64,000 nt of DNA, taken from a virus. A program made the translations under genes and the position numbers. Below are positions 6,997 to 53,807 of the stretch, piece by piece. Every line of letters begins with the position of its first letter. The stretch's first letter is position 1. The notes beneath the pieces were generated by a model. The model was not told the origin of the DNA, did not search any database, and was given only the letters and a program-made list of their open reading frames with translations. Where the stretch lies: the IMG/VR virus record IMGVR_UViG_3300023179_000042, positions 41,754 to 105,753 of that record, one strand, 5' to 3'.

Positions 6997-7917
6997 TCAA
7001 GTTTCTTCGGCCTCTTCTTCGCCGGATTCGATTTCGTCAGGCGTATCTTCAGACTTAGGCATTCTAAAGTTTTTGTATAGTTCGGCTTGTCTAGCAGTCT
7101 CTTCTGCGTACTCTTGTTGATTTTGTCTAGTAAGACTTGGCGTTAATCCATTCTGCTCTAGCAAGTCATCTCTAATATTTTGACTTTTCTTTTCGACATT
7201 TAGAATGCGAGTAAAGCTGTTTGTGACTGCCGCAGTATAATAGGCAAATGGATTATCTGACTTTGATTCGTCAAACTGTAGACCAATTTGACTTAATTGT
7301 AGTATTGCCTGCCCCTTCATCTCGTCGATATAGGTATAACCACGCCAGTTACTACGCTGAGCATAACGCTCACTTAACTTGATAAACATCTTACCTAAGT
7401 TTTCAGTAATGCGACCGTGATCCTTGCTAAACTTACCAGTCTTAATTCCGCCCTGCCAATGACTTTTACCTACACAGACTAATTCATTGGTTTCATTAAA
7501 CTTCCAATGTTGAAATGGGGGAAAATTAACTCTGTCATGTGCGTCAGAAGTACTTTTAACAGTTTTCTTTCTACCAGGAGCAGCCGGTATATGATCAAAT
7601 GTCATTATACGAATGACAATATCAGTTTTAGCAATTGTTTTGTAATCTGGCGTAACATCGAGCAATTTTGTTTTTTTATCGCCCGTGGCTCTTGCTTGAG
7701 CAAAGGCTTCGAGCCCTATTCTCTTAGCACGATTACGCTTTGCCTCTGCTATTGTTCTTATGTTGATTTTATCTAGGTTAGGAAGAATAATATCGTATTG
7801 ATGATATTCTGCTTTAACAAAGCTCGAAAATGAACATTTGCTACGATGTATTTCTGTTAGCAGGTCTTTATTGTTTAGATATTTTACTTTTCTTGGTGCT
7901 GGAAGCAAGGTGGTCAT
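6997..7917 (-). CDS. 55: gp55-like sigma factor for late transcription
   Basis: The C-terminal half matches T4 gp55, which directs RNA polymerase to TATAAATA promoters: a region 2-like run with KMFIKLSERYAQ, SNWRGYTYIDEMKGQAILQL and NPFAYYTAAVTNSFTRILN, then IRDDLLEQNGLTPSLTRQ. T4 gp55 has 185 residues. This protein has 306, with about 100 extra N-terminal residues of basic, mostly unrecognised sequence and an acidic tail (DEIESGEEEAEE) that could contact the sliding clamp, by analogy with the clamp-binding C-terminus of T4 gp55. It is divergent from the late module at 8032 and has its own sigma70-like promoter, fitting early or middle expression. Late boxes across the window fit its presence. 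Confidence 0.85.
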   Translation of the reverse strand: MTTLLPAPRKVKYLNNKDLLTEIHRSKCSFSSFVKAEYHQYDIILPNLDKINIRTIAEAKRNRAKRIGLEAFAQARATGDKKTKLLDVTPDYKTIAKTDIVIRIMTFDHIPAAPGRKKTVKSTSDAHDRVNFPPFQHWKFNETNELVCVGKSHWQGGIKTGKFSKDHGRITENLGKMFIKLSERYAQRSNWRGYTYIDEMKGQAILQLSQIGLQFDESKSDNPFAYYTAAVTNSFTRILNVEKKSQNIRDDLLEQNGLTPSLTRQNQQEYAEETARQAELYKNFRMPKSEDTPDEIESGEEEAEET

Positions 7918-25200: not shown

Positions 25201-28200
25201 CCACAGATTATTTCCATGATTTTAAAGTAGGAGATACGGTTTCTGTTGTAAACTTTAATAATCAGGTTAACGGCATTTATAAAATTATTGATATTCCTCA
25301 GCTTAATCAGTTTACAGTAAATTCTTCTTTAACATACATTAATAATGAACCATTGTTAAGTCCTGGATTGATTTACAGATTTGTAAGCCAACGATTTAAA
25401 AAGTTTGATGATATTCCTGTTGATTCTAAGCTATTAGCCTTGCCGTATGGTAGCAAATTTTGGATAGATGAAAATAATGAAGGTAAGTGGGAAGTCTATA
25501 CAAAAACAAAAAATTATTCGCAAAATTCAGTTATTAGCAGATCTCAACCACTTAATCAACAATTAGGTACAAGTATTGCTAAATCTAAAAATGATTCAAC
25601 ATTATTAGTTGGAGCACCGGGATATCAGTATTATCTTGACAATGGTAGAGTTTTTGTTTATGATAAGATTGGATCAACTTTGACTTTTAAACTTAGCTAT
25701 ACTTTAAACTCAGATAGAATTCAATACCACGACAGTTCGATTAGCCCGGTAACAGAGTTCGGTTATAAGGTTGATTATATACCTGATGAATTTAATAACT
25801 CGGGATATGGACTGTTTATTGTTGGTGCTCCTGCTACCGAAAATGTTTATTACAATACAGTAAGTCCAGGAGCAATATCTTATGCTCATCCAGATAATAC
25901 AAATACTTCAACATGGGGATTAGCGGGTGTTGTTAAGATTAGCAGTGTCGATCCTTTAACACAAAAAGAAAAAGCCGAGGTAGTATTGTCAAATCCGTGG
26001 CCCACTGATCGGGATCGATTTGGTGCTGAAGTTGCTCACTATGGTAATCTATTATTAGTCGGTGCTCCTGGCACAAATTCAACAGGCACCGGTAGAGTAT
26101 TTTCATATAGCATTGATACTACCGGGTATTACACAACCTCGTCGGCGCAAACAGTTATTGGCGTTACAACATCGATGAGTGTAACCTATACGGGCAGGAA
26201 AGAATTACCGGCTGAATATACTGCAGTTGACTCTGATGGTGTTATGTTTGGACATTCTATAAGTATATCCGACGAAGAGTATTTTAAGTATGCGGTTGGC
26301 GGGCCCGGATATAAATCTGAAAATGGACTAGTTGCTATTTTTGGAATGTATTCGCCCTCGGCTAACCAAGTAATTCAGCCGCCAACAAATGTATCGGGTA
26401 CTAAAAAGTTTGGACATAAAGTTGTAATAACACCAACACAACTATTTGTCAGTGCCCCATTACAAAGAAATTCTGATTTATCCTATGGTGCGGTTTACAT
26501 CTACGATTATGATATAGATGCCGGAGCATTTAATACCAGCACCTATCAAATAATTACTAACCCACTTCCTGGATCTAAGTTAAATTTTGGTCAGGATTTA
26601 AGCTATATTGAATCTGATAACTCTATTGTAATTTCTTCTACTGGCGATTTTACACCAAAATTTAATTTAGACAAAGGTAATACTACTTTTGATCAGAAAT
26701 CTACTAAATTTTATAATTCAATTAGAAAAACAGGTACTGCGTATGTATATTCTCGCAAAGACACACGATATGTTCTTGCCGATGAATTAAAAATTGATAA
26801 CTACACTGCCTTTACAGATTTTGGTTATACCGTTCATGCTACTGAAAACGAAATATTTGTTGGGGCCCCTTCATATAGTAGTACTCAGACAAGTAAAGTC
26901 TACGAGTTTAATAAAATTGATACAACAGTTCAAAGTTGGGATCTTTCAACAAAACAAGATGATGTTATTTCTTTAAATGAATTTAGACAAATACATATTT
27001 TTGATACTAAAAAAGATATCATTGTTGATTATCTAGATGTTGTTGATCCGTTAAAGGGTAAAATTCCCGGATTAGCAGACCAAGAAATAAAATATAAAGC
27101 GGCGTTTGACCCTGCTGTGTATTCCATTGGAATAGCTGGCACGGTCGTTGATATCAATACAAATTGGTTAGATGAACATGTAGGTGAATTATGGTGGGAC
27201 CTAAGTACATTAAAATATGTGTGGTACGAGCAAGGCGATCTATCATATAGAAAAAATAACTGGGGTAGACTCTTTCCGGGAGCTACAATTGATGTATATG
27301 AATGGATAGGTACACCTCTGTTGCCTAGCGAGTGGAGCTCACAAGCAGATACCGCTGCCGGTTTAACAAACAATATCAGTGGGCAACCAAAATTTGCCGA
27401 CAATAGTGTTGTTTCTGTAAAACAAATTTATGATTCGGTAACTAATTCGTTTTCTAATTACTACTTCTATTGGGTAAAAAACAAAGTTATTATTCCTAAT
27501 GTAAAAAATAGAAGAATAAGCTCATATCAGGTTGCTAGTTTAATAGCAGATCCAACTGGCTACGGATACAAATATGCTAGTATTATTGCTCCAGATGCGA
27601 TGACATTAGCTAATAGTAATGGATATGCGGTAGATACTCATGTACATTTAAATATTACCTATGATAAGATTGATAATAAAATTCCTAAGCATACTGAGTG
27701 GATTTTATTAAACGAAGGCTCAGAAAATTCAATGCCTCCACGGATGCTTGAAAGAAAGTTGTTTAATAGCTTAATTGGTAAAGATACATTTGGACATACA
27801 GTTCCAGACCCAAGTTTAAACGAGCGAACAAAGTATGGAATTGGAATTAGACCGCAACAAACTCTATTTAAATCAAGGTTAACTGCCTTAAGAAATCTTA
27901 TTGAGTTTTCAAATAATGTTTTAATAAAAGAACAAATAGTTGGAATGAAAGATCTAACTAGACTGTTGTCTCAAGAAGTCCCTCCTGATCAATATAGCGG
28001 ATTATGGGACAAAACTGTTGAGGATCTTGAAGGATTATCTGTAATCAACACAACAAAACTTGTTCAGGCCGAAGTAACTTGTACGGTAGCCGACGGCACA
28101 ATTAGAAGTGTGCAAATAGTTAATTCTGGTTACGGTTATTTGATTGCTCCTATAATAACTGTTATTGCTAACGAGAATGATATTAACACCCGCACAGTAA

Positions 28201-31200
28201 AGATTGAAACAGAAATTGATGAATTTGGAAGGCTTGTATCGACTAATATTGTTGATGGCGGCCGAGGTTTTACAGTTCCTCCTACCTTAACTGTTAGACC
28301 TTTCTCTGTTATTGTAACTTCAGATAGCACCTTTAATGGAAAGTGGACTTTGTTTACTTGGGATAAAGAAGTACAGCAATGGAACAGAATTCGAACACAA
28401 AAATATAATACTCCGTTGTATTGGAATTATATTGACTGGACCAGTTCCGATTTTGATCAGTTTAGAGATATCAGTAAAACTGTTAACGAACTTTTTGAAT
28501 TAAACTATCTTAACCTGCCAAAGAACAGTTATATAAAGATTAATAATCCTGGAGATAATTTACCAATCATTTTAGAGAAGGTAACTCCTTCTAAGTCTAA
28601 TACATTTTCTAATGGATATAATATAGTTTATAAACAAGGCGGAACTATACAATTTAGTAACGGTATATGGGATATCTATAATAATGATCTAGGCTACGAC
28701 AAAAATAATAGTTACGATCAAACATTGTATGATCAAACAATAGAAACAGAATTAAGAAATATCTTAATAGCTCTTAGAGATGACATTTTTGTTGACGAGT
28801 TAAAAGTTTACTGGAATAAATTTTTCTTCACGGCTGTCAAATATGCTATGTCAGAGCAGCCATTATTGGATTGGGCTTTTAAAACATCATTTATAAATGT
28901 TGTCAACAACGCTGGACTTTTAGATCAACGACCTGTTTATAAATTAAACAATTCTGAATATTATGAAAACTTCTTAAAAGAAATTAAGCCGTATAGAAGT
29001 CAAATTAGAACATTTACCAATAAGCATAAAATTTTGGAGCCATCTCAGTCTTTCACAACTGACTTTGATTCTCCTTCTTATTTTAATAGAACTACAAAAC
29101 AATTTGAAACAATTTCTGAAACAGATGCTCTTTCTGATGTTTACCCTTGGAAGGCATGGAAAGATAACAACTCGTTTATTATTGATAGTATTTCTGTAGG
29201 CAATGGCGGACAAAATTATATATTACCTCCTTCGGTGATAATTGAAACAGCACCGGGTGATTTGGGGTCAGGAGCAGCAGCACAGGCATATATAAGCTCT
29301 GGGCAGGTTAATAAAATTGTTGTAACTAATCCCGGTGTTGGATATAAAAAAGCGCCTCTAATAAGATTGGAAGGAGGCGGCTATGCAGATTTGGTTCCTG
29401 CCGTTGCTTATCCAATTATGGCAAATAACAAGGTTAGAACAAACACCATTAAAATTAAATTTGATAGAATTTCCACTCAAAACCAAATTGGTGACGATTT
29501 TGTAGTTGACTCGTTTAATTGCGATGGAACAACATCAATTTTTTATCTTAATTGGTGTGCTCGTTTAGATAGATCGAAAATATCAGTAACTATTGACGGC
29601 GCCTATGTTCTTAGTAGCGAATATATAATTCAAAACTACGAAGAAGAGTTTAATGGTTATACAAAAAAGTATTCTAAGCTTCAGTTTGTTAATCGTATTC
29701 CTGAAATCGGAAAAGTTTTAGTTGTAAAATACGCAAAGAATTTAGAATTGTATAGTGCCGCTGAACGAGTCTTACAATATTATAGTCCAAAATCTGGCAT
29801 GCCTGGAAAAAAACTAGATCAGGTAATGTCGGGTGTAGTTTATCCAAAGACTCAACTTCAAACATTAGGGTTTGATTATACCAGCAAGTGGGATAACCAA
29901 TACGAGATCAATAATGTACCAGTTTATTATTCAGGGTTTGAAACTGCAGCCTATGGCGATGATGTTAGCTATTATACCTTAATTAAAACCTCATCAACTA
30001 CTACAGTTGGATCTAACACATTAACTTTGGCAACAGTTGAGGGTATAGTCGTAGGACAAAATGTTAATATTTCTAATACTCTAACAAATAAATTTAGTAG
30101 CTCAACTGTATTGGTAACCGCAATTAACCAAACAAGCAAAACCGTTACATTGAATACATCGGTAGCGTCTACAGTATTTCCTGGTGACAGTGTAGAGTTC
30201 TGGACACAAACTACAAATTTCACTGCTCTTGATACAATTATCGATAGTGGATATCCTGGATTTACATTAACAAATACCGGCTCGGCTCTACAATATGCGT
30301 TAGGAATAAACCCAGAAGATATAACCATAGACGGGGATGGATTTTTTACACCAGATACAAGTTTTGCCACTGAAGAATTTGTTCCGGGAGAAAGCTCTGA
30401 TAGTATTGGAATAAATGTTTATACTAAATCGGGTGTAGGTGCTCCGCTAATTTATACCGGCAAAATTGATGTACCGAGCAAACGCAATAAGACTGAACTT
30501 TTTGTTCCTTATCCTCCGCCAACGGCTGATTCAATAGTAGTTACTTTTAATACGCAGATATTACAAAGGACCGAGCAATTATTTTTTGCGGCCACACTTG
30601 ATAGTCCTTACTATTACTACGATTTCATCAACAATAAAATTATCATTTATAAGAGAAGTGTTAACGGAGTATTAGGTTACTCAGTAGTTACTGTAGGCGG
30701 TGAGGGAGTTGTCGATCATGGAAGTACAGTAGTTTATAACCAAACTGATGGCCAAGTTGACAGTCTTGCCTATTACGACGACATTAAATTAGCCTATGTC
30801 ACAGTTAACGGTGAAATTATTGGTACTACAAGTACTTCATTCACCAACAAGTACTATGATCTAACTTATTCAAATGAATCTAATAAGCGAGCAAGTGTTC
30901 ATGTTCATAATTTGAATACCAACACTACCAGTACTATACAAGCATGGTTTTTTGACTCTGACGCTGCAACCTTTAATGAAGTTAGATCTCAAACTTTTGT
31001 GTATGACAATGTCAGTACCGCTACAAATATAGAAATTAATAGACCGCCTGGCGTGATAGAGCCATTTGCTCCGCAAGTTATTTTAGAAGTAAGTGTTGAT
31101 AATGGTGTTACATATCGAAGAGTAATGCCCCCATTTACGGCCTACTACAATATTGTTAATACAGCTATTACAACCTATTCTATTAATAATTCTAGAAATT

Positions 31201-33029
31201 TTGTAGACAAATTTATCACACCCGGTACGGGCTTTACTGTACAAAATGTTGATGTGTTTGTAAACGGAGTTCAGCTAGCCCGAGGTATGGATTATACCGT
31301 TGACGATGACATTGTTAATGGCATGGCTAATCCTACTATAACTTTAGATAATGAATTAATTTTAACCGAGGCAGTTAAACCTGGTGATGTGCTGGCAATC
31401 GTTGCCAAACCAGACCTTGGGTGGGAATTTGATATTATAAGTGGTAGCATTTATTTTAATGCTAATGCTGAAATAGTTCCTGGGTATATTGGGTATATCA
31501 CTGATTGTGTATTAAAAATTACAACATATACAAACCACGATCAGATGCTAATGAGAACAGAACGATTTGTAGGTAATACATATAGAAGATTTAGAATAAG
31601 CAGACAAGTTCTAAATAATAATTTTGTATGGGTTACTCTTAATAATCAACCGCTGGTTAACAAGTATGATTATATTATCTTAGATGATGGATATACTATT
31701 CAAATAAGTGATACAATTAGAGTCACCGAAGCCGATGAAGTTGTAATTCAATCTTTTAGTACACAAATTTTAGGTTATGATACTCTAGGGTACAGAGTTT
31801 TTAAAGATATGTTTGGAAGACAATCATTTAAGAGATTGTCAAGAACAAATTCTACAACATTGACACAACCATTGAATTATTATGATACCGAAATTCATGT
31901 TGCTGACGCAAGTGTTTTAACACCTCCGTCTTTATACAGAAAACAACCGGGAGTGGTAACTATTTCTGGAGAAAGAATAGAATTCTATAAAGTTGATGGA
32001 AATGTTTTAAAACAACTCCGTAGAGCTACAATGGGTACAGGTGCGAGTTTTTCTCTTGCTTCAAATTCTAAGGTAATTGATCAAGGTATAAATCAAACCG
32101 TTCCGTATTCTGAAGAGATGCTAGTGCAGTCATACTTAACAACATCTACTACAACCTACACAATTTTTAACTACTCCATGGATGATTGGGGTGATGGAAT
32201 AGCTTTATCGCAGCCTTCTACATCAACAATAATAAGTTCTGCCCTCGCTCTTAATGCTTACGGCATTGCTCTTGATTACTATAATAGAGGGCAGTATGAT
32301 GCTCTCTATGATTTAAATGGAGATAGTGTAATTGACCTTCAAGATTTAATCGATTATCAAACTTTAGCCTCAGGCGGATCTTTGCCATATACTCCGTCAG
32401 AGAGTTCCAATTATCAACAGTTATTTGAAGTAACACAAGCAACTTCGCCTATACCAGCTAAAGATCAAATTGCTGTTTACTTTGGTGGTAGATTATTAAA
32501 GAAAGATCCATATTTTTATCACGATACAACTTTGGCCTACGATAGTCCTCAATATAATATTATCGGTACCATGGACAACGAAACAATGCTTTCGACGGTT
32601 ACCACTGTTGTACTAACTTTAGGCGATGGATATATTGTTACTTCGACAAATCAAGTGTGGATTTATACAAATTCTACAGAATTAGACGCGGTCAATGGTT
32701 TTGTCTATAGAGGTTTAAAGTATGCTCCGCCTGAGTTTACCATCAATACATCTACACAGCAAATTAAATTAAATATTGTAGATGGAGTTGAACCAAATAT
32801 CAAATTGTCATTTGTAAAAAAACAATTTAATAGATTGTCGTGTTGGAATAATATTGTGGACGCTAATACAACATTGTCATTGTTAGAAAGTACAACAGTA
32901 CCTGCTAAGTTTTTACAGGCAAGACCGGCCGAACTTCCTGATAGTTATTATTATGGCGGTCCTGATATTTTAACCGATGGAGGAAATCCATTAACTGATA
33001 CCAATTCTAATCCATTAATAGGAAATTAA
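19284..33029 (+). CDS. Giant baseplate/tail protein in the gp7 position, with FG-GAP beta-propeller
   Basis: At 4581 residues this gene fills about a fifth of the window. The N-terminus (SVNLLPETHRTDKNSRFLSS, IQKPELERINGFIG, then an FDRIYKPKYYAYDPFVDWDK segment) resembles giant structural proteins after gp6 in marine T4-like phages. T4 has gene 7, the wedge initiator, here. Around residues 2094-2535 seven repeats share an FG....(V/I)GAP pattern, starting near 2094, 2158, 2245, 2321, 2375, 2434 and 2512, as in FG-GAP/integrin-alpha propellers. Gly-rich GYGYLIAP/GRGFTVPP-type segments follow near 2950-3000 and 3310-3380. A calcium-loop-like DLNGDSVIDLQD occurs at 4343-4354. It is likely a peripheral wedge or host-contact protein; gp7 homology is inferred from position. 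Confidence 0.7.
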   Translation: MAKNIKSVNLLPETHRTDKNSRFLSSTVDQLIQKPELERINGFIGTKDTPTYNSSNDIYISESTQIRQNYNLEPALVTYSTAGSVVNVVAIDDLTNEINFRGGITDNFDRIYKPKYYAYDPFVDWDKLVNFQEYFWLVTGPQTIEITGRPKNTTSTYTVEVENSQFVFTPSGMSDSILTLYRGNTYNFENLTEQNFYVKFTASPGNTDLYPVNVVSNGTSTGIVKLIVDVNTPSVLYCGGNDKTLLCKIVVKDSREDSTIDIEKDILGKKSYLSGNGIALSNGMKIKFGGTVLPEKYRDNEYIVEGVGEFIRLVDYKDLIPQSVIASNFDDNFDANPFDEYPFDNFKNLPINPEYLTINRASRDLNPWSRYNRWFHKDIITISAEFNNMEPEYPSNLRAQRPIIEFKPNLQLYNFGNIAIPNVDLIDFVTTDPLGQRENTRGLFVDGRRLNEGMTVIFAAAKDDDVRNKVFRATYFQRRKARRLNLEPIQDVIENNCVSINYGTRAGGRCYHYDGSNWKSSQNHTRLNQAPLFDLFDKDGKSYSDKTYYYSNFAGNRVFSYKRGSGTSDSVLGFPLSYRNLNGVGSYLFRNYFMNDSFTLSSGEYDTTSTSFSTAITFLKKNDEKGDQLVNVWRDKEDYQIPVYQLQSYLSGTSTVEINSVKLNNNISFEIEAYNDEKIIPKSDYNILSSGTNYTVNFNNTVTSNVLLKIFTDAPIVGNGYYETPLNLTNNPLNGNITDLTLSEISDHVGTMVNRDTSWSGIFPGTSNLRDLPGIAKYGTRLISNYNPITFAQLFLGSPYYSVESAIKQTAKDYEEFKNNFLTLVATHPDQNSPVSAVDTILKSMVANISKGSAYHNSDMIPFGSHRVRQFTVLSSRRTDYPISLDYNPSKLSNQAVLVYINGVQGWLGRDYIFLDDQNAVRIITPIVANDTIEIREYTDTSGCYCPQTPSKLGLYPAFRPRKYFDDSYIDRPRNVIIGHDGSKMIAYNDYRDDIIIELEKRIFNNIKSKYNPDLLDINSLLPNAFRKTEYSLKEINQILQSDFVTWAGLFGLDYQNNSSFDEANPFTYNYVGTSDTLTSTSLSGFWRGIYKYFYDTDLPHKSPWRMLGFYDRPEWWIAEYGPSPYTSGNDILWQDLENGYIRGGSNPGYNPIYARPGLTNIIPVDESGKLIDPSVLLITNSTPYDRRQNWKFGDHGPVETVWRNSSSYPYAIQRLLLLTKPAEYCSVFFDVSRLIKNAAGQWVNADTNRFLNLKDVALFGENNTLAAGYSVWVIEQGLKRNSQFVYRLRNRIDNFTVNLFHKVGGFVDKNKLRIIIDSVSPSSTDPGAILPQENYLLHLNVSNPVEAVAASGIVIQKQQDKFIVKGYDRYRPYFTIYQPIRNSNTPAITIGGISESFVDWNYNDSSGSTSLSAEDLTTANTATGNNFYQQGQIVRYLNKFYRVKVSHTAEANFNPSFYAAIPQVPIKGGATVQIAKSYSKQETLIPYGTMFDNIQDVYDVIIGYGQWLVEQGFIFDNFNQELNTVLDWRFSAKEFLYWSTQNWAPNSIITLAPFSPQVKFRKQTAVTDNFLNGNYDYTILTADGSSLPSKNLSVNRDDDITIIEPTNTNNGIFFIYVRPVQKEHGMIFDNTTIFNDIVYDPETGYRQKRMKLVGFRTSNWNGDYSSPGFVYDKGVVNRWEQFTLYRYGDVVTWNGKYYSAANSISGSSKFNIGDGWVLLDKAPTPGLIPNFDYKISQFEDFYSIDIDNFDAGQQKMAQHLIGYTPRVYLDNIVPDAISQYKFYQGYIREKGTRNPLTKISKSVTNDQTGSINFDEEWAFRVGQYGSYTTFRELEFRLTEGSFIENPQIINFVDTQPTQKPNDLVYYIDNNKFAIQPSEYSSSNVFFTSSSTFKNPGFKYPTAGYVNLNDITYTAYNENSLLDIANNGSIKDGDVIWLGFKTNGDWDVLRYENSPFKIIGVFVNSPGVTITFTTDYFHDFKVGDTVSVVNFNNQVNGIYKIIDIPQLNQFTVNSSLTYINNEPLLSPGLIYRFVSQRFKKFDDIPVDSKLLALPYGSKFWIDENNEGKWEVYTKTKNYSQNSVISRSQPLNQQLGTSIAKSKNDSTLLVGAPGYQYYLDNGRVFVYDKIGSTLTFKLSYTLNSDRIQYHDSSISPVTEFGYKVDYIPDEFNNSGYGLFIVGAPATENVYYNTVSPGAISYAHPDNTNTSTWGLAGVVKISSVDPLTQKEKAEVVLSNPWPTDRDRFGAEVAHYGNLLLVGAPGTNSTGTGRVFSYSIDTTGYYTTSSAQTVIGVTTSMSVTYTGRKELPAEYTAVDSDGVMFGHSISISDEEYFKYAVGGPGYKSENGLVAIFGMYSPSANQVIQPPTNVSGTKKFGHKVVITPTQLFVSAPLQRNSDLSYGAVYIYDYDIDAGAFNTSTYQIITNPLPGSKLNFGQDLSYIESDNSIVISSTGDFTPKFNLDKGNTTFDQKSTKFYNSIRKTGTAYVYSRKDTRYVLADELKIDNYTAFTDFGYTVHATENEIFVGAPSYSSTQTSKVYEFNKIDTTVQSWDLSTKQDDVISLNEFRQIHIFDTKKDIIVDYLDVVDPLKGKIPGLADQEIKYKAAFDPAVYSIGIAGTVVDINTNWLDEHVGELWWDLSTLKYVWYEQGDLSYRKNNWGRLFPGATIDVYEWIGTPLLPSEWSSQADTAAGLTNNISGQPKFADNSVVSVKQIYDSVTNSFSNYYFYWVKNKVIIPNVKNRRISSYQVASLIADPTGYGYKYASIIAPDAMTLANSNGYAVDTHVHLNITYDKIDNKIPKHTEWILLNEGSENSMPPRMLERKLFNSLIGKDTFGHTVPDPSLNERTKYGIGIRPQQTLFKSRLTALRNLIEFSNNVLIKEQIVGMKDLTRLLSQEVPPDQYSGLWDKTVEDLEGLSVINTTKLVQAEVTCTVADGTIRSVQIVNSGYGYLIAPIITVIANENDINTRTVKIETEIDEFGRLVSTNIVDGGRGFTVPPTLTVRPFSVIVTSDSTFNGKWTLFTWDKEVQQWNRIRTQKYNTPLYWNYIDWTSSDFDQFRDISKTVNELFELNYLNLPKNSYIKINNPGDNLPIILEKVTPSKSNTFSNGYNIVYKQGGTIQFSNGIWDIYNNDLGYDKNNSYDQTLYDQTIETELRNILIALRDDIFVDELKVYWNKFFFTAVKYAMSEQPLLDWAFKTSFINVVNNAGLLDQRPVYKLNNSEYYENFLKEIKPYRSQIRTFTNKHKILEPSQSFTTDFDSPSYFNRTTKQFETISETDALSDVYPWKAWKDNNSFIIDSISVGNGGQNYILPPSVIIETAPGDLGSGAAAQAYISSGQVNKIVVTNPGVGYKKAPLIRLEGGGYADLVPAVAYPIMANNKVRTNTIKIKFDRISTQNQIGDDFVVDSFNCDGTTSIFYLNWCARLDRSKISVTIDGAYVLSSEYIIQNYEEEFNGYTKKYSKLQFVNRIPEIGKVLVVKYAKNLELYSAAERVLQYYSPKSGMPGKKLDQVMSGVVYPKTQLQTLGFDYTSKWDNQYEINNVPVYYSGFETAAYGDDVSYYTLIKTSSTTTVGSNTLTLATVEGIVVGQNVNISNTLTNKFSSSTVLVTAINQTSKTVTLNTSVASTVFPGDSVEFWTQTTNFTALDTIIDSGYPGFTLTNTGSALQYALGINPEDITIDGDGFFTPDTSFATEEFVPGESSDSIGINVYTKSGVGAPLIYTGKIDVPSKRNKTELFVPYPPPTADSIVVTFNTQILQRTEQLFFAATLDSPYYYYDFINNKIIIYKRSVNGVLGYSVVTVGGEGVVDHGSTVVYNQTDGQVDSLAYYDDIKLAYVTVNGEIIGTTSTSFTNKYYDLTYSNESNKRASVHVHNLNTNTTSTIQAWFFDSDAATFNEVRSQTFVYDNVSTATNIEINRPPGVIEPFAPQVILEVSVDNGVTYRRVMPPFTAYYNIVNTAITTYSINNSRNFVDKFITPGTGFTVQNVDVFVNGVQLARGMDYTVDDDIVNGMANPTITLDNELILTEAVKPGDVLAIVAKPDLGWEFDIISGSIYFNANAEIVPGYIGYITDCVLKITTYTNHDQMLMRTERFVGNTYRRFRISRQVLNNNFVWVTLNNQPLVNKYDYIILDDGYTIQISDTIRVTEADEVVIQSFSTQILGYDTLGYRVFKDMFGRQSFKRLSRTNSTTLTQPLNYYDTEIHVADASVLTPPSLYRKQPGVVTISGERIEFYKVDGNVLKQLRRATMGTGASFSLASNSKVIDQGINQTVPYSEEMLVQSYLTTSTTTYTIFNYSMDDWGDGIALSQPSTSTIISSALALNAYGIALDYYNRGQYDALYDLNGDSVIDLQDLIDYQTLASGGSLPYTPSESSNYQQLFEVTQATSPIPAKDQIAVYFGGRLLKKDPYFYHDTTLAYDSPQYNIIGTMDNETMLSTVTTVVLTLGDGYIVTSTNQVWIYTNSTELDAVNGFVYRGLKYAPPEFTINTSTQQIKLNIVDGVEPNIKLSFVKKQFNRLSCWNNIVDANTTLSLLESTTVPAKFLQARPAELPDSYYYGGPDILTDGGNPLTDTNSNPLIGN

Positions 33030-44046: not shown

Positions 44047-44343
44047 TTAATATTTTTCCTTGTTAATATCATGTAAAATTGGACATCCTAATGTTAGCAT
44101 TAAGATCTCTTTAGGATCCTCGATGCCAACCTCTATTACTTCAGACATCTTTTTACTTTTGTCTAAAATAATAGATCTCTTAAGGCTGTACCTACTATTT
44201 AAATTATAGTTAATCCAGTGATCGAGCAGTTTGATATCGGCTGTATTAGATATTGTAATCCTTTTAAAGTGCTCCGGAATAAAACTTAAACGCCTTAGTC
44301 CGAGAACACTTAAAGGATTAAGCTCACTTCTACTCAATGACAT
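44047..44343 (-). CDS. Hypothetical phage protein, late-promoter led
   Basis: 98 residues, with no recognised domain. The sequence has FIPEHFKRITISNTADIKLL and a C-terminal IEVGIEDPKEILMLTLGCPI block that looks conserved-core-like. It starts only six to seven bases after the predicted start of a late transcript (box 44356-44363). The stop codon lies two bases before the ATG of the next gene. The start codon lies in a possible 6-bp stem (ACATTA/TAATGT) that would form only in read-through RNA from the VWA gene. Confidence 0.5.
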   Translation of the reverse strand: MSLSRSELNPLSVLGLRRLSFIPEHFKRITISNTADIKLLDHWINYNLNSRYSLKRSIILDKSKKMSEVIEVGIEDPKEILMLTLGCPILHDINKEKY

Positions 44344-44354
44344 TAACTACCTAC

Positions 44355-45599
44355 TTATTTATAATGTGCAGTTTGGCCGAATGGCGAAATTATGCTGTCG
44401 TTTCCGTGGACAATAAACAGGGTTTCGCAGTAGTCTTCGTCGCCCCAAGATCCACAAGGATATCCGTCGGTAAACATAATAAAACGCTTTGGACGAATAT
44501 CGTTTTCTTCCATAAAACGCCAATTTGCTTCAAAATCAGTGCCGCCACCACCCATACATTTGTAGTCGTTAATTTCATCTGCGTTATCGCCGGTAAATTG
44601 TTGATAGTTATAGATTTCAGTATCAAAGCACCAGATATCCAGTTTGAAGTCAACATACTCGTCCATAATGCCTTTGACCTCACTAAGGAAATCTTTTGCT
44701 TGGGTATCACTGATACTACCACTCATGTCAATAGCAACACTAACATCGATGGTTTCTTCGTTAAGCATTCCGGGAAGTACAGCACCCGTATGTTGGCTCT
44801 TACGATTTGGACGATTAAAGCTATAGTTACTCTTAAGAATGCTTTGAATACTCATACGCAAAAGTTGTCGCCAATCCATCTTTGGCTCAGTAAAATCCTT
44901 TATCATACGAGCGATGCCAGCAGGCACACGACCGGCGCCAGCAGCCTGTGCGGCCGCTACCACAGCTTCTTTAATTTCATCGCGGATTTGCTTACGTTCT
45001 TCGGCAGTTAATCGAGGCCGACCTTTGCCATCTTTTTTATCATCACCGTCACCGTCACCGCCTTCGCCGTCAAGATGTTCGTCGAGCAATTCACCTAAAG
45101 CGCTCATATCAATCTTGACCGCCTTTTCAAACACATCGGCATAAATTTGCTCGTAGCTCCAACCGCGGTATTTGTTGTCTTGGAAAATTTTAATCCAATC
45201 AGGAACACTACCAATTTTTTCATCGTGAAGAATTTGGTTAGCGGCATAGTCTGCGGCAATATTGCTCAATTGAGGATCGCGACTTTCACGTCGACCCATA
45301 TGATCGAAGACATTATGGAGAACTTCGTGAGCAAAACCGAATTCAGTTTCTTTAGGAGTAAGACGATGAACAAAGTCGTTATTGTAATAGAAATGGCGGC
45401 CGTCGGTAGCCAAAGTAGCGCACCAGTCAGTGGCATCAACCAATTTGAGACGAGTGGCTAGATTTCCAAAAAATGGATGACGCAGTAGAAGGCCAATACG
45501 AGCCGTGGTAAGTTTTTCTACAATTTTATTTTTTTCATCTCGTGTAAAGTTGCGAGGTTCAAATTTCTTTGTCTTTTCAGACTTCATTACTTCGCTCAT
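44355..45599 (-). CDS. VWA-domain protein with HExxH metallopeptidase-like N-terminus (DUF2201 type)
   Basis: Two domains in 414 residues. The N-terminal domain has FAHEVLHNVFDH (His91-Glu92-x-x-His95), the pattern of putative metallopeptidase domains fused to VWA proteins, followed by NIAADYAANQIL. An acidic linker (about 176-190) and a basic helix lead to a VWA domain with MIDAS residues DMSGSIS (Asp291, Ser293, Ser295), Thr354 in GGGGTDFEANW and Asp378 in MFTDGYP. In bacteria such proteins pair with MoxR AAA+ ATPases, and a MoxR gene lies just upstream (45685-46767). Its client is unknown. It has its own sigma70-like promoter, and a terminator separates it from the ATPase gene. Confidence 0.8.
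   Translation of the reverse strand: MSEVMKSEKTKKFEPRNFTRDEKNKIVEKLTTARIGLLLRHPFFGNLATRLKLVDATDWCATLATDGRHFYYNNDFVHRLTPKETEFGFAHEVLHNVFDHMGRRESRDPQLSNIAADYAANQILHDEKIGSVPDWIKIFQDNKYRGWSYEQIYADVFEKAVKIDMSALGELLDEHLDGEGGDGDGDDKKDGKGRPRLTAEERKQIRDEIKEAVVAAAQAAGAGRVPAGIARMIKDFTEPKMDWRQLLRMSIQSILKSNYSFNRPNRKSQHTGAVLPGMLNEETIDVSVAIDMSGSISDTQAKDFLSEVKGIMDEYVDFKLDIWCFDTEIYNYQQFTGDNADEINDYKCMGGGGTDFEANWRFMEENDIRPKRFIMFTDGYPCGSWGDEDYCETLFIVHGNDSIISPFGQTAHYK
44356..44363 (-). promoter_or_regulatory. T4-type late promoter inside the 3' end of the VWA gene
   Basis: The minus strand reads TATAAATA exactly, overlapping the VWA stop codon and placing +1 near 44350, just before ATG 44343. Confidence 0.6.
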
Positions 45600-45625
45600 A
45601 GTGCTTCCTCAAAGTTGATTGTATT

Positions 45626-45654
45626 ATTATACACGATTGGTAAAACAATTACAA
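45626..45654 (-). promoter_or_regulatory. Sigma70-type promoter for the VWA gene
   Basis: Minus strand: TTGTAA (45649-45654), 17-bp spacer, TATAAT (45626-45631) preceded by GTG, close to an extended -10. The predicted leader is about 20 bases and includes GAGGAAG before the ATG. Confidence 0.7.
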
Positions 45655-45657
45655 GTG

Positions 45658-45684
45658 AAAATGGGCAGTTTCCTGCCCATTTAT
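45658..45684 (-). terminator. Intrinsic terminator after the MoxR gene
   Basis: A 10-bp perfect stem AAATGGGCAG/CTGCCCATTT with a GAAA tetraloop on the minus strand starts three bases after the MoxR stop codon. The run of U is short (four, partly in the stem), so termination may be partial. The VWA promoter begins directly behind it. Confidence 0.6.
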
Positions 45685-46767
45685 TTACTGCTCCATGGCA
45701 ACGATAACATACTTTCCGTATTTTTCGTAGAACTTATCGAAGTTAGCCAGTTTGCTAGAATCAAACGGAAGTTGATAGTTCGCAATAGCGACTTTGGCAC
45801 CCATAACTACAAGTTCGGTTGGGAAATTGTCCATCATAAAACCAAAGAAGTTATCAGCAAGGCCGTCCCAATCTTTAACTTTCTTTTCGTAGGCGCTTTG
45901 AAGCTCGTAGCACATACTAACAGTCAAAGAGTACATGGCCGAAATTTCTTTAATATCGGCTTTCTTAACTTTGCCATTCAAAATGTCTTCGGGCTTAGGC
46001 ATCTGCTTGGCAACCTTGCGGTGAGCCATAAACTTAACAGCAAGGCCTTCACCAACAGCACCTGCGACCAGATCGGTCAGCGTGTTCTCCGGAAGGTCGT
46101 CATCTTCCAACAGGTCACTGACAAATGACCAGCTACGGGGAGTAGCAAAAGAACGAGAGCTAGACTTAGGATCGAAGTCATATAGATCTTGTTTGGCAAA
46201 ACTCAAATAACCAACAACCTGCTCATGAACACGATTGTTGGTGGCCCAATTGAGCCAATCGTCAAAATCGGTCTTCAGTTCCAAATGTAGGAAGCGGTTT
46301 GCCAACGGAGCAGGCATACGATAGGTAACACCTTTGTCAGCTTCACGGTTACCTGCGGCAACGATGCTGACGCCTGTTGGCAGGATGTAAGTACCAACAC
46401 GGCGATTAAGAATAAGTTGATAAGCAGCCGCTTGAGTGGCAGGAGCCGCAGAATTCAACTCGTCCAAAAACAGAATACTGTTATCTTCTGGATCCGTAGG
46501 CAGTTCAGCCGGCGGAGCCCAAGTCATAGTATTAAGATCGGAATTGTAATAAGGAATACCCTTAATGTCAGTAGGTTCCCAAAGGCTCAAACGAACATCA
46601 ATAACATTTCGGCCTTGTTCTTCGCCAATTTGTTTAACAATGTCGGACTTGCCAATTCCGGGAGGACCCCACATAAAAACAGGGCGCTGAATTTTGATAC
46701 ACTTGCGAAGACTACGCTTCGCATCGCTCGGGCTAACAGTACGATTGCCGCTAATTTGTTCTGCCAT
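45685..46767 (-). CDS. MoxR-type AAA+ ATPase
   Basis: A 360-residue AAA+ protein: Walker A GPPGIGKS (34-41), Walker B SILFLDELN (Asp102, Glu103), sensor 1 Asn140 in VAAGNRE, and an arginine-rich MPAPLANRFLHLEL segment, all typical of MoxR ATPases. MoxR proteins act as chaperones that remodel or activate clients through a VWA partner, here the gene at 44355-45599. It is led by a strong TTGACT-17-TATAAT promoter and a stem-loop at the very start of the mRNA, and it ends at a terminator. This suggests early, high and independent expression. The target in the infected cell is not known. Confidence 0.85.
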   Translation of the reverse strand: MAEQISGNRTVSPSDAKRSLRKCIKIQRPVFMWGPPGIGKSDIVKQIGEEQGRNVIDVRLSLWEPTDIKGIPYYNSDLNTMTWAPPAELPTDPEDNSILFLDELNSAAPATQAAAYQLILNRRVGTYILPTGVSIVAAGNREADKGVTYRMPAPLANRFLHLELKTDFDDWLNWATNNRVHEQVVGYLSFAKQDLYDFDPKSSSRSFATPRSWSFVSDLLEDDDLPENTLTDLVAGAVGEGLAVKFMAHRKVAKQMPKPEDILNGKVKKADIKEISAMYSLTVSMCYELQSAYEKKVKDWDGLADNFFGFMMDNFPTELVVMGAKVAIANYQLPFDSSKLANFDKFYEKYGKYVIVAMEQ

Positions 46768-46797
46768 TTTATGCTTCCAAAAAAGTGTTTAAAAACT

Positions 46798-46817
46798 ATG
46801 CTGAACCGTTTCAGCAT
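46798..46817 (-). promoter_or_regulatory. 5'-terminal stem-loop in the MoxR mRNA
   Basis: ATGCTGAA/TTCAGCAT with a 4-nt loop. Counting from the -10 box at 46824, the predicted +1 is about 46817, so the stem would start at the first transcribed bases. Such 5' stem-loops protect mRNAs from RNase E in bacteria. Confidence 0.6.
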
Positions 46818-46823
46818 GTTATT

Positions 46824-46852
46824 ATTATAGTTGAAAACACCCTGCGAGTCAA
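46824..46852 (-). promoter_or_regulatory. Strong sigma70-type promoter for the MoxR gene
   Basis: Minus strand: TTGACT (46847-46852), 17-bp spacer, TATAAT (46824-46829): 11 of 12 consensus positions. It overlaps the 3' end of the upstream gene. Confidence 0.8.
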
Positions 46853-49337: not shown

Positions 49338-49784
49338 TTAACTTACTTCGGTCCGCCCGTCATCACGCAGTGCTCGATTAACATAGCCTGCTCCTCTGCG
49401 GCTCATGTCAACTCCTTCTTCGGTACCTAAATTACGACATAATTCGTTAAACCATTGATCCACAATTTCTTCATCGGATCCTCCGGTATATCCAGCACTT
49501 CGAAGTTGAAGAATAAAATACTCGTTCCAATCTAATTCAAAAAAACCGTTACGAACATTTTCTTTATTAACATGAGTTTCAAGAACAGCCACCCAGGGCT
49601 CTTTCTTTTCAGTGGCCAGTTCTTTAGGTGTAAGTTTAGCGACACGCTCTGATTCTTTTGCCAAGGCCGCTGCTTCAGCGGCCGCTGCCGCTTGCTGAGT
49701 TGCTTCGGCAGCTTCTTTTAATGCGGCCTCAGTTTTGGCCTTAATTTTATCAATGCCGAGTAGCTTTTCAATAAATTTATTCAT
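49338..49784 (-). CDS. Conserved phage protein with Ala-rich coiled coil
   Basis: 148 residues from ATG 49784, which overlaps the QueE stop as TAATG; a GTG four codons earlier is possible but would lie inside QueE. Residues about 15-50 are an Ala/Glu/Lys coiled coil. The C-terminal part is the conserved domain: KKEPWVAVLETHVNKENVRN, GFFELDWNEYFILQLRSAGY and EEIVDQWFNELCRNLG. I recognise it as a T4-like phage family without known function. It is the last gene of the deazaguanine operon. Confidence 0.55.
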   Translation of the reverse strand: MNKFIEKLLGIDKIKAKTEAALKEAAEATQQAAAAAEAAALAKESERVAKLTPKELATEKKEPWVAVLETHVNKENVRNGFFELDWNEYFILQLRSAGYTGGSDEEIVDQWFNELCRNLGTEEGVDMSRRGAGYVNRALRDDGRTEVS

Positions 49785-50632
49785 TAGGTCCCCCACTCGT
49801 TCTTAAACAATGGCACTTGTAGTCTGTCGCTATAACGCCATCCTTTTTTCATTGCTAGTAAGGCTACATTGCGATTATTCAATGAATAGACGCTTTCAAC
49901 TCCGCCGACCGGCATCAGATAAACGGGACCTTTAAATCCAGCTTCTCTATATTCTTTAACTGCCTGTTCGGCATCTTGTAGGTCTTGTTCATTGGTTATA
50001 ACAAACTTTAAATAAACATAACCAAAGTTTTCATAATCAACAACCACAGCAGGTTTAATAGCATCTTTCCAAGGTTCGCCGCTAACAGGTAATTTAGCAC
50101 TTACACTAAAAGTAATTTCTCTGTCAAAATGCTCATGTTTCCAGCGACTTAGATATTCTTTAAAGTCTTTGGTAAGACGCATTGTACCATTTGTTTCAAA
50201 GGTAATTTCTTTAAGACCATTCATTTTAGGATTATCGATAAGATCTGGATACTGCTTTTGCCAACCTAATAGTGGTTCGCCGCCGGTGATTACCAAATGT
50301 TCGTCGCGCCATTCTTTGTACGGAAGCGTATCCATAATCGCGTCGGCAATTGAATCAGTAGATAGAAGGGGAGATAGATGCTTAAAGCGAGGATCCCAGC
50401 TAGCGTAACTATCACAGCCTGTACTAACCAAAGGAAGGGATTTGTACTCGGTGTACTGAGTCGGGTCAATATTGTTTGCTTCTTCACTTAGTTCTCCTCT
50501 AGGCATTCCAAAGCCTTGACATTTAAAATTACATCCAAAAGTGCGAAGGAACACACTAGGCACGCCCATGTAGCGACCTTCTCCTTGAATGCTATAAAAT
50601 AACTCTGCTACTTTAATTTTGCTTTTTACCAT
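49784..50632 (-). CDS. queE: QueE-like radical SAM enzyme (7-carboxy-7-deazaguanine synthase)
   Basis: The 282-residue protein resembles QueE, which turns 6-carboxy-tetrahydropterin into 7-carboxy-7-deazaguanine: ELFYSIQGEGRYMGVPSVFL, RTFGCNFKC, VITGGEPLLGWQ (SAM-binding GGEP) and EITFETNGT. The cluster site is unusual. Cys34 and Cys38 keep the first spacing, but the third Cys of C-x3-C-x2-C is Phe41. Cys73 in TGCDSYASW, after a 30-residue insertion, may be the third ligand. With DpdA (56187) and a QueD-like protein (55251) in the operon, a role in DNA base modification is likely. It overlaps the HIT gene by seven bases. Confidence 0.8.
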   Translation of the reverse strand: MVKSKIKVAELFYSIQGEGRYMGVPSVFLRTFGCNFKCQGFGMPRGELSEEANNIDPTQYTEYKSLPLVSTGCDSYASWDPRFKHLSPLLSTDSIADAIMDTLPYKEWRDEHLVITGGEPLLGWQKQYPDLIDNPKMNGLKEITFETNGTMRLTKDFKEYLSRWKHEHFDREITFSVSAKLPVSGEPWKDAIKPAVVVDYENFGYVYLKFVITNEQDLQDAEQAVKEYREAGFKGPVYLMPVGGVESVYSLNNRNVALLAMKKGWRYSDRLQVPLFKNEWGT

Positions 50633-51012: not shown

Positions 51013-51470
51013 TTAATTTTTGCTCTTTCTTTTAGGTACACGTCATTATGTATCCAATTGTTGTTAACTAAAAAACCCCATTCACGCTTTTGAGGCCCAG
51101 GCATAAACAGCGTCCAGCAATCTACACCTTCACAAAGTTCGATACGATGATAAGAAGTAGCATGACATACACGGAAATGACCAGGGCCACGCCACATTCT
51201 TTCTTCACCAATCTTTTGCCCGAGGCCGTTAAATTTTGCCACCCATTCATAATATCCGCCCTTTAAAATTAAAGTAGCGTAAGGCCATGGATGATCATGC
51301 ACATCATCGGGGTCTGACTTAAGGAACTTGTGAAGAAACACATTGAAGGGGAAACGCTTTCTATCTTTAAGAAACAGGTAGTAGCGTTCAAGGTATGGTT
51401 CATTGCTCTGTCTATCTAAAACAATTCGTTTACGGCCGATTCGTTCAAGCCATGTTAGAAACCATTTCAT
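51009..51470 (-). CDS. Cupin-like protein
   Basis: 153 residues with one cupin-like beta-barrel: HKFLKSDPDDVHDHPWPYAT, LILKGGYYEWVAK and then ATSYHRIELCEG. The HDH...Y and later His could form a metal site, as in cupins that act on sugars or small acids. It starts inside the last codons of GalE (26-base overlap), so it may act on a nucleotide sugar product. No specific substrate can be named. Confidence 0.55.
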   Translation of the reverse strand: MKWFLTWLERIGRKRIVLDRQSNEPYLERYYLFLKDRKRFPFNVFLHKFLKSDPDDVHDHPWPYATLILKGGYYEWVAKFNGLGQKIGEERMWRGPGHFRVCHATSYHRIELCEGVDCWTLFMPGPQKREWGFLVNNNWIHNDVYLKERAKIK

Positions 51471-52434
51471 GTTTTTTCATCCAATCGTATGTTGTTTCTA
51501 CAATTTTTAATAGAGTGCTGTTTAGAGGAGTCCATCCAGCATCTCTGATAAAATCAGTAGGGTCTGCTACAAGTTCGGCCGGATCTCCAACTCTCTGTGG
51601 TCCAAAGATAATTTTAGTATGCTGTTTGGTCACAGCCTTTACAGCAGCCACAATTTCAAGATTAGAAAATCCTCGACCTGTACCAAGATTATATGATCTA
51701 AATGTACCTTTGTCAAATGTATTTGCCAAAACAACAGCTTTAACATGAGCATCAGCTATGTCTGATACATGGAGATAATCTCTGATACAAGTTCCATCTC
51801 TTGTTTTGAAATCGTTACCGTTTATAGTGATTGGTGTATTTTCTAAAATACTTTGTACAACTCTTGGAACTAAATGTGTATCATTCCATAAATTGCCTAA
51901 TTTTCCATCTAAATCGCAACCGCAGGCATTGAAGTATCTAAGTGCTATAGATTTAAAACCATGGGCACGAGAATGATCGTTAATAATTTGTTCGCAGATT
52001 TTCTTACTATGTCCGTACGGACTAACAGGAATACCAGATGCTGCTTCTTTGATAGGCAATGTACAATTATTTCCGTACACAGCAGCACTACTACTAAAAA
52101 TAATATTGCCCTGCCAACCCAGTTTGGCAAGATCGTCTAGCATTATATTTGTTCGAGCGCAGTTGTTATTGTAGTACTCGCCGGGGTCAGCCATGCTAGG
52201 TCCTACAAGGCTTGTTCCAGCTATGTGTACAATATTTTTACTTTTATTTTCTTTAACTATTTTAGGAACAATGGTAAAGTCGTCTATAATGAGCTGATCA
52301 ATAAATTGAGCAGACTCGGGGATAGTCATTTCTCTATCTACACCGATAACTGTATAGCCTAAAGAATGAAAGGCTTTAGCGGTTTGTCCTCCGATAAAGC
52401 CCATAGCGCCTGTAATAATAACCGATTTAGACAT
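51445..52434 (-). CDS. galE: UDP-glucose 4-epimerase-like (GalE) extended SDR
   Basis: The 329-residue protein has the NAD-binding GAMGFIGGQ motif at the N-terminus, the catalytic Ser/Tyr-x3-Lys set in FSSSAAVYGN and SPYGHSKKICE, and GalE-type RYFNACGCDLDGKLG and RDGTCIRDYLHVSDIADAHV. It would interconvert UDP-glucose and UDP-galactose or related sugars. It lies in the operon with a GT-B glycosyltransferase (53807-55006), suggesting supply of a sugar donor. A product for host surface change is possible too. Confidence 0.9.
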   Translation of the reverse strand: MSKSVIITGAMGFIGGQTAKAFHSLGYTVIGVDREMTIPESAQFIDQLIIDDFTIVPKIVKENKSKNIVHIAGTSLVGPSMADPGEYYNNNCARTNIMLDDLAKLGWQGNIIFSSSAAVYGNNCTLPIKEAASGIPVSPYGHSKKICEQIINDHSRAHGFKSIALRYFNACGCDLDGKLGNLWNDTHLVPRVVQSILENTPITINGNDFKTRDGTCIRDYLHVSDIADAHVKAVVLANTFDKGTFRSYNLGTGRGFSNLEIVAAVKAVTKQHTKIIFGPQRVGDPAELVADPTDFIRDAGWTPLNSTLLKIVETTYDWMKKHEMVSNMA

Positions 52435-52705
52435 CTGTTTTCTTTTTAGATTTTTTGCTTTCTACACTTGCTATAGCTTCTCTTACATCTCGTTGTAATG
52501 CTCCCCGGTCGGATTCAAATTCTATGCGACCATCTTCAAATTCACGCCTAACACTGTGACTTCCGATTGTAAGTTTGGGCCATTCAGTTGATACTGATTT
52601 CTTTTTTGTCTTCTTGGGTTCGGTTTCACCTAGTGTTACTTCTGCCGCTAATTTAGATATTTCTGATATAATTTCTTTTTCAGTTTTCTTTTTTCTTGTT
52701 GCTAT
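52427..52705 (-). CDS. Lys-rich small protein with apparent non-ATG start (ATA or ATT)
   Basis: A 92-residue frame fills the gap between GuaC and GalE. It ends inside the GalE start (8-base overlap) and starts right after GuaC with GAGGT at good spacing, yet it has no ATG, GTG or TTG near the start: the first codons are ATT (52708) and ATA (52705), after an in-frame TGA. The protein is protein-like: N-terminal ATRKKKTEKEIISEISKLAA, a basic linker, then EWPKLTIGSHSVRREFEDGR and IEFESDRGALQRDVREAIAS, ending in Lys-rich sequence. Function is unknown; charge suggests nucleic acid binding. Confidence 0.5.
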   Translation of the reverse strand: MATRKKKTEKEIISEISKLAAEVTLGETEPKKTKKKSVSTEWPKLTIGSHSVRREFEDGRIEFESDRGALQRDVREAIASVESKKSKKKTDV

Positions 52706-52709
52706 AATA

Positions 52710-53807
52710 TTACCTCACAAACACATCGTTAATTTGACGATTAACACGAATGAATGTTGTACACTTGCTTAACTGCTTTAAAGTGGCAGCACCGACATAG
52801 GTACATGTACTGCGTAGTCCCCCTAAGATATCTAGTACAGTATTCTTTACAGGACCACGATATGGTACTTCAACAGTACGTCCTTCACTACTTCGATATT
52901 CAGCAACACCTCCGTGGTGTTTTTCCATAGCGGTGTCACTGCTCATACCATAGAATTGAACAAATTGTTTTTTGTAGGCATAGAACTCATAAGTCCCAGC
53001 ATTGTGATTTGAAATAAATTGCTCACCGTTTTCGTTAAAATATTTTGTGATTACTTTGCCACCGCCTTCATCATGCCCGGCCAACATGCCGCCTAGCATT
53101 ACGAAGTCCGCACCAGCGCCGAAAGCCTTAGCAACATCACCAGGGCAAACACATCCACCGTCAGCAATAATATGAGCACCAAGACCGTGAGCGGCATCGG
53201 CACATTCAATAATTGCACTAAGCTGTGGGTAGCCCACACCAGTTTGGATACGAGTAGTACAAACGCTACCAGGGCCGATGCCCACTTTAATAATATCTGC
53301 CCCACGGTAAATTAACTCCTGTGCCATATCTGCAGTGACAACATTTCCGGCAATAATAGTACAGTACGGAAATGACTTACGAACTCGCTGAACAAAATCA
53401 CCGAAATGCTCACTATATCCGTTAGCAACATCAATGCAGATAAAATGAAGTTCAGGATAACCATCTAATATATTTTGTAACCTTTCGAAATCATCTTCGC
53501 TTGTACCTGTACTAACAGCCATATAGTTGCCACCAATGGCTTTAACTGTTTCTTCTAAATCAGTATATTCATAGTTTTTGGTAAGGCATGTGAACAGTCT
53601 ATGATCGTATAACGCTCGAGACATTTCCAATGTCCCTACACCGTCCATATTAGCAGCCATGATAGGAACACCAGTCCATTCCCAACCGCTATGCTTAAAC
53701 TTGTATGTACGATTTAGATCAACATCTTTACGACTTGCTAATGTACTACGCTTTGGGCGAATTAGTACATCTCGAAAATCAAGTTTAATTTCGTCTTCGA
53801 TACGCAT
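52710..53807 (-). CDS. guaC: GMP reductase (GuaC)
   Basis: The 365-residue enzyme belongs to the IMPDH/GMP reductase family. The catalytic Cys loop is [20 protein letters not shown], and FDRDVLI-type N-terminus ([15 protein letters not shown]), [34 protein letters not shown] and [11 protein letters not shown] follow. The ...TTR..TGVGYPQ spacing and absence of CBS domains favour GMP reductase (GMP to IMP) over IMPDH. It would recycle guanine nucleotides from degraded host nucleic acid. In this operon it could shift the purine pool when deazaguanine replaces guanine. Confidence 0.85.

Follow-up and report, generated by a model that had tools for sequence, protein, structure and literature searches.

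In jumbo phages, a MoxR-vWA gene pair has been described in which the vWA protein is fused to a metallopeptidase, the proteins of Atu_ph07 being cited as examples, and a role in virion assembly was proposed for the Atu_ph07 pair, with the MoxR-VWA pair of the Acidianus two-tailed virus (ATV) cited as a precedent (Iyer et al. 2021, PMC7824862). Homologues are also found in phage N4, whose gp24 and gp25 belong to a core set of 14 genes shared by N4-like phages and are produced as middle transcripts (PMC4193335, PMC7650795, PMC2784036). Outside viruses, the NorQD system associates a hexamer with a single VWA protein through a pore finger and a C-terminal contact, and the MIDAS is needed for activation of the client (PMC13036017, PMC9976466), while RavA and ViaA are present at about 350 and 90 molecules per cell, respectively (PMC3893208).

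The locus considered here belongs to the IMG/VR viral record IMGVR_UViG_3300023179_000042, of 105,753 bases in total, and was analysed within a stretch of 64,000 nucleotides (positions 41,754 to 105,753 of the record), hereafter the window, whose coordinates are used throughout. Two adjacent ORFs on the minus strand encode a MoxR-clade AAA+ ATPase of 360 aa (45685-46767) and a DUF2201 protein of 414 aa (44355-45599), the latter composed of an N-terminal HExxH (zincin-like) domain, an acidic linker, and a C-terminal VWA domain with a complete MIDAS. These ORFs and their Pfam domains bear out the adjacent MoxR-VWA pair announced in the original prediction, made from the DNA letters, and the metallopeptidase-like HEVLH site and its Glu92 were correctly read, at residues 91-95 of the VWA protein. 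The pair itself is nevertheless not new, as it corresponds to that of jumbo phages and to N4 gp24/gp25 in the works cited above: the novelty lies in its regulatory layout, and not in the two proteins. Elsewhere in the window, a QueE-like ORF (7-carboxy-7-deazaguanine synthase; 49784-50632, minus strand), recognized from sequence only, hints at deazaguanine modification of DNA or RNA; a single ORF of 4581 aa (19284-33029, plus strand), unusually large, lies within the structural-gene block; and a sugar epimerase-like ORF with a dehydrogenase-like one (phrog_9582) after it, at 51445-53807 on the minus strand, may represent host-surface or nucleotide-sugar genes.

The ATPase was assigned from Pfam matches (AAA_5, 4.7e-7; AAA_3, 27.5 bits, just above the cut-off of 27), an alignment of 139 viral MoxR proteins, an AlphaFold2 model (mean pLDDT 89) and fold matches. 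It harbors Walker A (G37/K40/S41), Walker B (D102-E103) and sensor-1 (N140) residues, together with candidates for the arginine finger (R158) and for sensor-2 (R211, within P-R-S/T-W), and K40, D102, E103, N140, R158 and R211 are all near-invariant. In the alignment, the helix-2 insert (about residues 60-95) is seen as a variable stretch separating D67-G70 from Walker B; in the model, it folds as a beta hairpin. The best solved folds for this model are NorQ, including NorQ-NorD VWA complexes, and CbbQ (E 1.8e-9 to 1e-8), whereas the best PDB match by sequence profile is midasin (2.5e-27), another AAA+ protein working with a VWA-MIDAS domain. A RavA-like assignment was rejected, as no RavA-named entry occurs among the top sequence-profile or fold matches listed.

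In the VWA protein, the N-terminal HExxH domain matches DUF2201_N (2.2e-44) and the C-terminal VWA domain DUF2201 (1.6e-15), the two domains (PF13203 and PF09967) scoring 152.5 and 57.8 bits against curated cut-offs of 23.2 and 26.4, and both are matched in 37 of 37 relatives. This protein is labelled "HNH endonuclease" in PHROG_1314 and in many RefSeq records (for example NC_042013, NC_008720 gp25 and NC_019526), a reading that was rejected because no HNH family is matched in Pfam at E<=1 and all members match DUF2201; the label is apparently a propagated misannotation, and its wide use hides the VWA protein. Across an alignment of 187 proteins, 145 of them viral, H91 and H95 are found in every viral sequence and E92 in 144, while the complete MIDAS (D291-S293-S295, T354, D378) is present in 145/145, and both sets of residues are also kept in most bacterial-genome relatives. 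Such near-invariance of the zinc-site and MIDAS residues argues for selection on the two metal sites. The zincin-like HExxH head is a probable zinc peptidase, with weak profile links between the N-terminal domain and M48 peptidases as well as MJ1213. No conserved Glu of the gluzincin type was found downstream of HExxH in the alignment; N113, D117 and N121 are near-invariant there, D117 and N121 being present in all 145 viral proteins and D117 also in most bacterial-genome relatives, and D117 is a candidate third metal ligand. The sole exception to HExxH among the viral proteins is Atu_ph07 (L084), the published exemplar of the family, whose HQxxH implies that its peptidase head is probably inactive and that catalysis is not universal in the family. 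The AlphaFold2 model of the VWA protein (mean pLDDT 83) matches integrin-type I domains and phage VWA/metallopeptidase proteins, and, weakly, the VWA fold of ATV ORF892. A conserved stretch of low model confidence just before the VWA core (250-282) and a conserved G408 near the C-terminus are at most suggestive, by analogy, of a NorD-like pore finger and C-terminal ring contacts.

How widespread is this pair, and in which genomic company is it found? A tblastn search of 50,697 phage records yielded 838 with the ATPase and 760 with the VWA protein, all below 60% identity. Over 750 sequenced phage records carry the pair, which is also core in N4-like phages. Carriers include N4, Vequintavirinae phages, cyanophage S-TIM5, Thermus phage phiFa and RaK2-type jumbo phages; the nearest phage is Pseudomonas phage PA5oct (53% identity for the ATPase, 48% for the VWA protein), and megablast of window positions 40000-64000 against phages returned no match. 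The survey of synteny in relatives that had been proposed as a check came out in favor of the pairing, a MoxR gene lying near the VWA gene in 79 of 80 close IMG/VR viral loci and again in 79/80 of a wider viral set, with two exceptions: L036, truncated by the contig end, where the VWA gene begins 15 bases from that end, and L216, where the VWA match begins 126 bases from it. A MoxR homologue also lies near the VWA gene in 43 of 47 bacterial-genome loci. The three of these copies that were inspected closely, from Mesorhizobium, Variovorax and Niastella, sit among integrase, helicase, exonuclease or ParB genes and are therefore probable mobile elements; none of the three suggests a host client. 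In Niastella vici (L117, 3015-8004), ParB, MoxR, DUF2201 and DUF3150 genes follow each other on a bacterial contig that is probably part of a mobile element, and DUF3150 may be an additional partner there.

The occurrence of the pair across unrelated phages, together with the expression class discussed below, would suit a counter-defence machine acting on a host defence complex by dismantling or cleaving it, as suggested by the original prediction. However, a defence antagonist would not usually have core-gene status as the pair does in N4-like phages, no neighbours associated with defence were seen, and PADLOC gives weak AAA matches only for the ATPase and none for the VWA protein, so that we consider this role very improbable.

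In CBB, RaK2 and XaC1, the pair comes after virion genes. A thymidylate synthase gene lies downstream of it in the window (as judged from its sequence), CBB, RaK2, XaC1, Vibrio phage 2.275, S-TIM5 and RHph_I1_6, at a distance of no more than about 5 kb in several lineages, and dCTP deaminase follows it in N4 and RHph_I1_6; nucleotide-metabolism genes are often found downstream, which is suggestive only. They can be brought in support of a metal-insertion or enzyme-activating chaperone, whose HExxH head would handle metal rather than act as a protease, and whose client would be a metalloenzyme of the phage or of its host, perhaps one involved in nucleotide metabolism. The closest folds of the ATPase, NorQ and CbbQ, do activate enzymes, NorQ by iron insertion (PMC13036017). 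Yet Glu92 is conserved to the same degree as the histidines, which favors hydrolysis, and the link to M48 peptidases and MJ1213, however weak, points the same way; a role in metal insertion is accordingly regarded as improbable.

The regulatory signals of the locus could not be judged from a consensus scan alone, an approach that was rejected because the counts it gives for the region equal chance (53 promoter-like sites for 45.8 expected, and 12 terminator-like sites for 11.9). They rise above chance because about 75 relatives keep them at fixed positions. An alignment of 17 phages proved too divergent for scanning the genome, and a closer set was used instead. The promoter comparison covered 76 close relatives, the locus of the window being counted among them. 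The MoxR gene is preceded by TTGACT-17-TATAAT (46824-46852, minus strand), which scores 11/12, a score reached by less than 1% of shuffled sequences. Of the relatives, 40 reach 12/12, 30 reach 11/12 and 6 reach 10/12; the spacer is 17 nt in 75/76 and the match to TTGACA-17-TATAAT near-perfect, so that the near-consensus sigma70 promoter attributed to MoxR at the outset is upheld.

The predicted +1 of the MoxR mRNA is also the first base of a 5'-terminal hairpin, ATGCTGAA-ACGG-TTCAGCAT (46798-46817, minus strand), with a folding z of -3.75 in the window. Of 50 non-redundant relatives, 26 have a MoxR leader with z below -2 and 44 start pairing no more than six bases from +1, while the VWA leaders in the same comparison are devoid of any comparable hairpin (mean z 0.2). 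At +3, +4 and +6, three different Watson-Crick pair types are observed in 38 sequences with an outer helix of at least 5 bp; as the pairs were taken from each sequence's own predicted fold, and not from a formal covariation test, this is supportive of the structure. A known RNA family was rejected for this leader, which has no match in Rfam. A hairpin at the very 5' end usually protects an mRNA from 5'-dependent decay, and may in this way favor MoxR over VWA.

Just after the MoxR stop, the gap between the two genes contains a terminator-like hairpin, AAATGGGCAG-GAAA-CTGCCCATTT (45659-45682, minus strand), with a 10-bp stem and a GAAA loop, which a stock terminator scanner missed, probably because the stem uses part of the T run. 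Its structure is kept in relatives while its sequence varies (mean folding z -2.9 over 47 sequences), in agreement with the terminator that had been placed between the two genes. It is followed by the VWA promoter, TTGTAA-17-TATAAT (45626-45654, minus strand). The gap is usually 80-90 nt in relatives, and an exact TATAAT is present within the last 60 nt before VWA in 75/75 of them, 17-37 nt ahead of the gene; one locus (L047) has a 4-nt gap without the terminator-promoter block. The description of this promoter as near-consensus is only partly borne out, as the window scores 10/12 with a -35 at 4/6, and the -35 in relatives is usually of a weak TTGC type (overall score 9/12 in 40 and 10/12 in 15), the rest being TTGACA-like. 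A middle promoter of the T4 MotA type was considered for the TTGC element at -35 and rejected, the element lying about two bases away from what we take to be the position of the MotA box. Separate sigma70-type promoters for MoxR and VWA, as predicted, are thus conserved in relatives; they were not found in PA5oct, N4, CBB, RaK2 and the others compared, and by this comparison the split arrangement is specific to this phage lineage. The "tuned ratio" of the two products suggested initially is a reasonable inference, given that the MoxR promoter is the stronger of the two and that the MoxR mRNA bears a 5' hairpin.

A third type of signal lies at the other end of the pair, where a T4-type late promoter motif, TATAAATA (44356-44363, minus strand), overlaps the VWA stop and serves the next gene (98 aa, 44047-44343). 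Its presence is explained by the fact that the phage encodes a T4 gp55-like late sigma factor (6997-7917, minus strand; phrog_12791 1.8e-85, phrog_234 3.2e-25). The motif is depleted in the window, with 3 copies for 9.3 expected, and each of these copies (1077-1084 on the plus strand, 2988-2995 and 44356-44363 on the minus strand) shortly precedes a gene; likewise, 15 of the 18 other copies in the loci of relatives precede an ORF. It is found at the VWA stop in 65/76 relatives, and upstream of MoxR or VWA in 0/76. Its conservation is partly constrained by coding, because the last codons are Tyr-Lys-stop, but where the protein has this ending the motif is present in 65/71, against about a third from codon use, in a comparison uncorrected for phylogeny. 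With the motif at the VWA stop and absent before both MoxR and VWA, the pair most likely falls into a pre-late class, and the gene that follows into the late one. Of the original claim that both genes are made early, the pre-late class is supported by the missing late promoter, while the timing itself is what we infer.

In this lineage, the regulatory anatomy sets the pair apart from late virion genes, and thereby questions the published proposal, according to which such a pair would act as a chaperone assembling the tail or head, with peptidolytic maturation of structural proteins. Besides the ATV precedent and the fact that virion genes precede the pair in CBB, RaK2 and XaC1, this proposal can draw on the PA5oct ATPase, which is flagged ESI-MS/MS in its record and may thus co-purify with virions. 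Against it stand the lack of a late promoter before MoxR or VWA despite gp55-like late transcription, the middle expression of the N4 homologues (PMC4193335), and the nucleotide-metabolism genes found among those that follow the pair in N4, RHph_I1_6, S-TIM5 and the window. We therefore hold it to be unlikely, and pre-late expression here, with middle expression in N4, lowers the likelihood of a purely structural client. Early expression is compatible with a client in virion assembly, T4 gp31 being a capsid chaperone that is expressed early.

Taken together, the pair is probably, by analogy, a pre-late remodelling machine of the NorQD/CbbQO type, made of two components, driven by ATP and equipped with a zincin head. 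In such a machine, MoxR would form a hexameric ring on which one VWA protein would dock via its VWA domain; ATP hydrolysis would shift this domain, whose MIDAS metal would capture the client, and the pulled or twisted client would probably be cleaved or otherwise processed at the zincin-like head, as suggested by the nearly invariant HExxH domain. Expression would be organized in a MoxR unit (strong sigma70-type promoter, 5'-terminal hairpin, terminator) and a VWA unit with a mostly weaker promoter, the T4-type late promoter after VWA starting the next gene. MoxR would then be in excess over VWA, suiting a complex of one ring plus one adaptor, with RavA:ViaA as precedent, and the client would presumably be engaged before or during replication, and not only in virion assembly. 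A more specific version can be offered only tentatively: the ring motor would feed or twist the MIDAS-captured client into the zincin head and so reprogram a host or phage replication or transcription complex, in hundreds of unrelated phages, with the ratio of the two proteins set in this lineage by the promoters, the 5' hairpin and the terminator.

Among known systems, the ATV tail system is likewise a viral MoxR-VWA pair, but has no peptidase domain (PMC7824862). RavA-ViaA also combines a MoxR ATPase, present in excess, with a VWA partner, and we know of no HExxH head in ViaA. NorQ-NorD and CbbQ-CbbO provide the best folds for the ATPase, and share its helix-2 insert and a MIDAS partner with a C-terminal VWA domain, but sequence identity is about 15%, their clients are respiratory NO reductase and Rubisco, and NorD, unlike the VWA protein of the window, is not described with an HExxH head. 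N4 gp24/gp25, core genes of the Schitoviridae, form a homologous pair in the same order, with HELWH and MIDAS kept in gp25, and are also middle, non-late genes (PMC4193335); they differ by an identity of about 30%, and are adjacent within one middle region without split promoters of the sigma70 type. The Atu_ph07 pair (ASV44729/ASV44728) consists of the same two proteins, with the same domain order, adjacent genes and 36-42% identity in both, but shows the HQxxH variant and a 52-nt gap without the terminator-promoter block of the window. What is specific to the lineage described here, and was not found in the published accounts consulted, is the conserved split in regulation together with the 5' hairpin.
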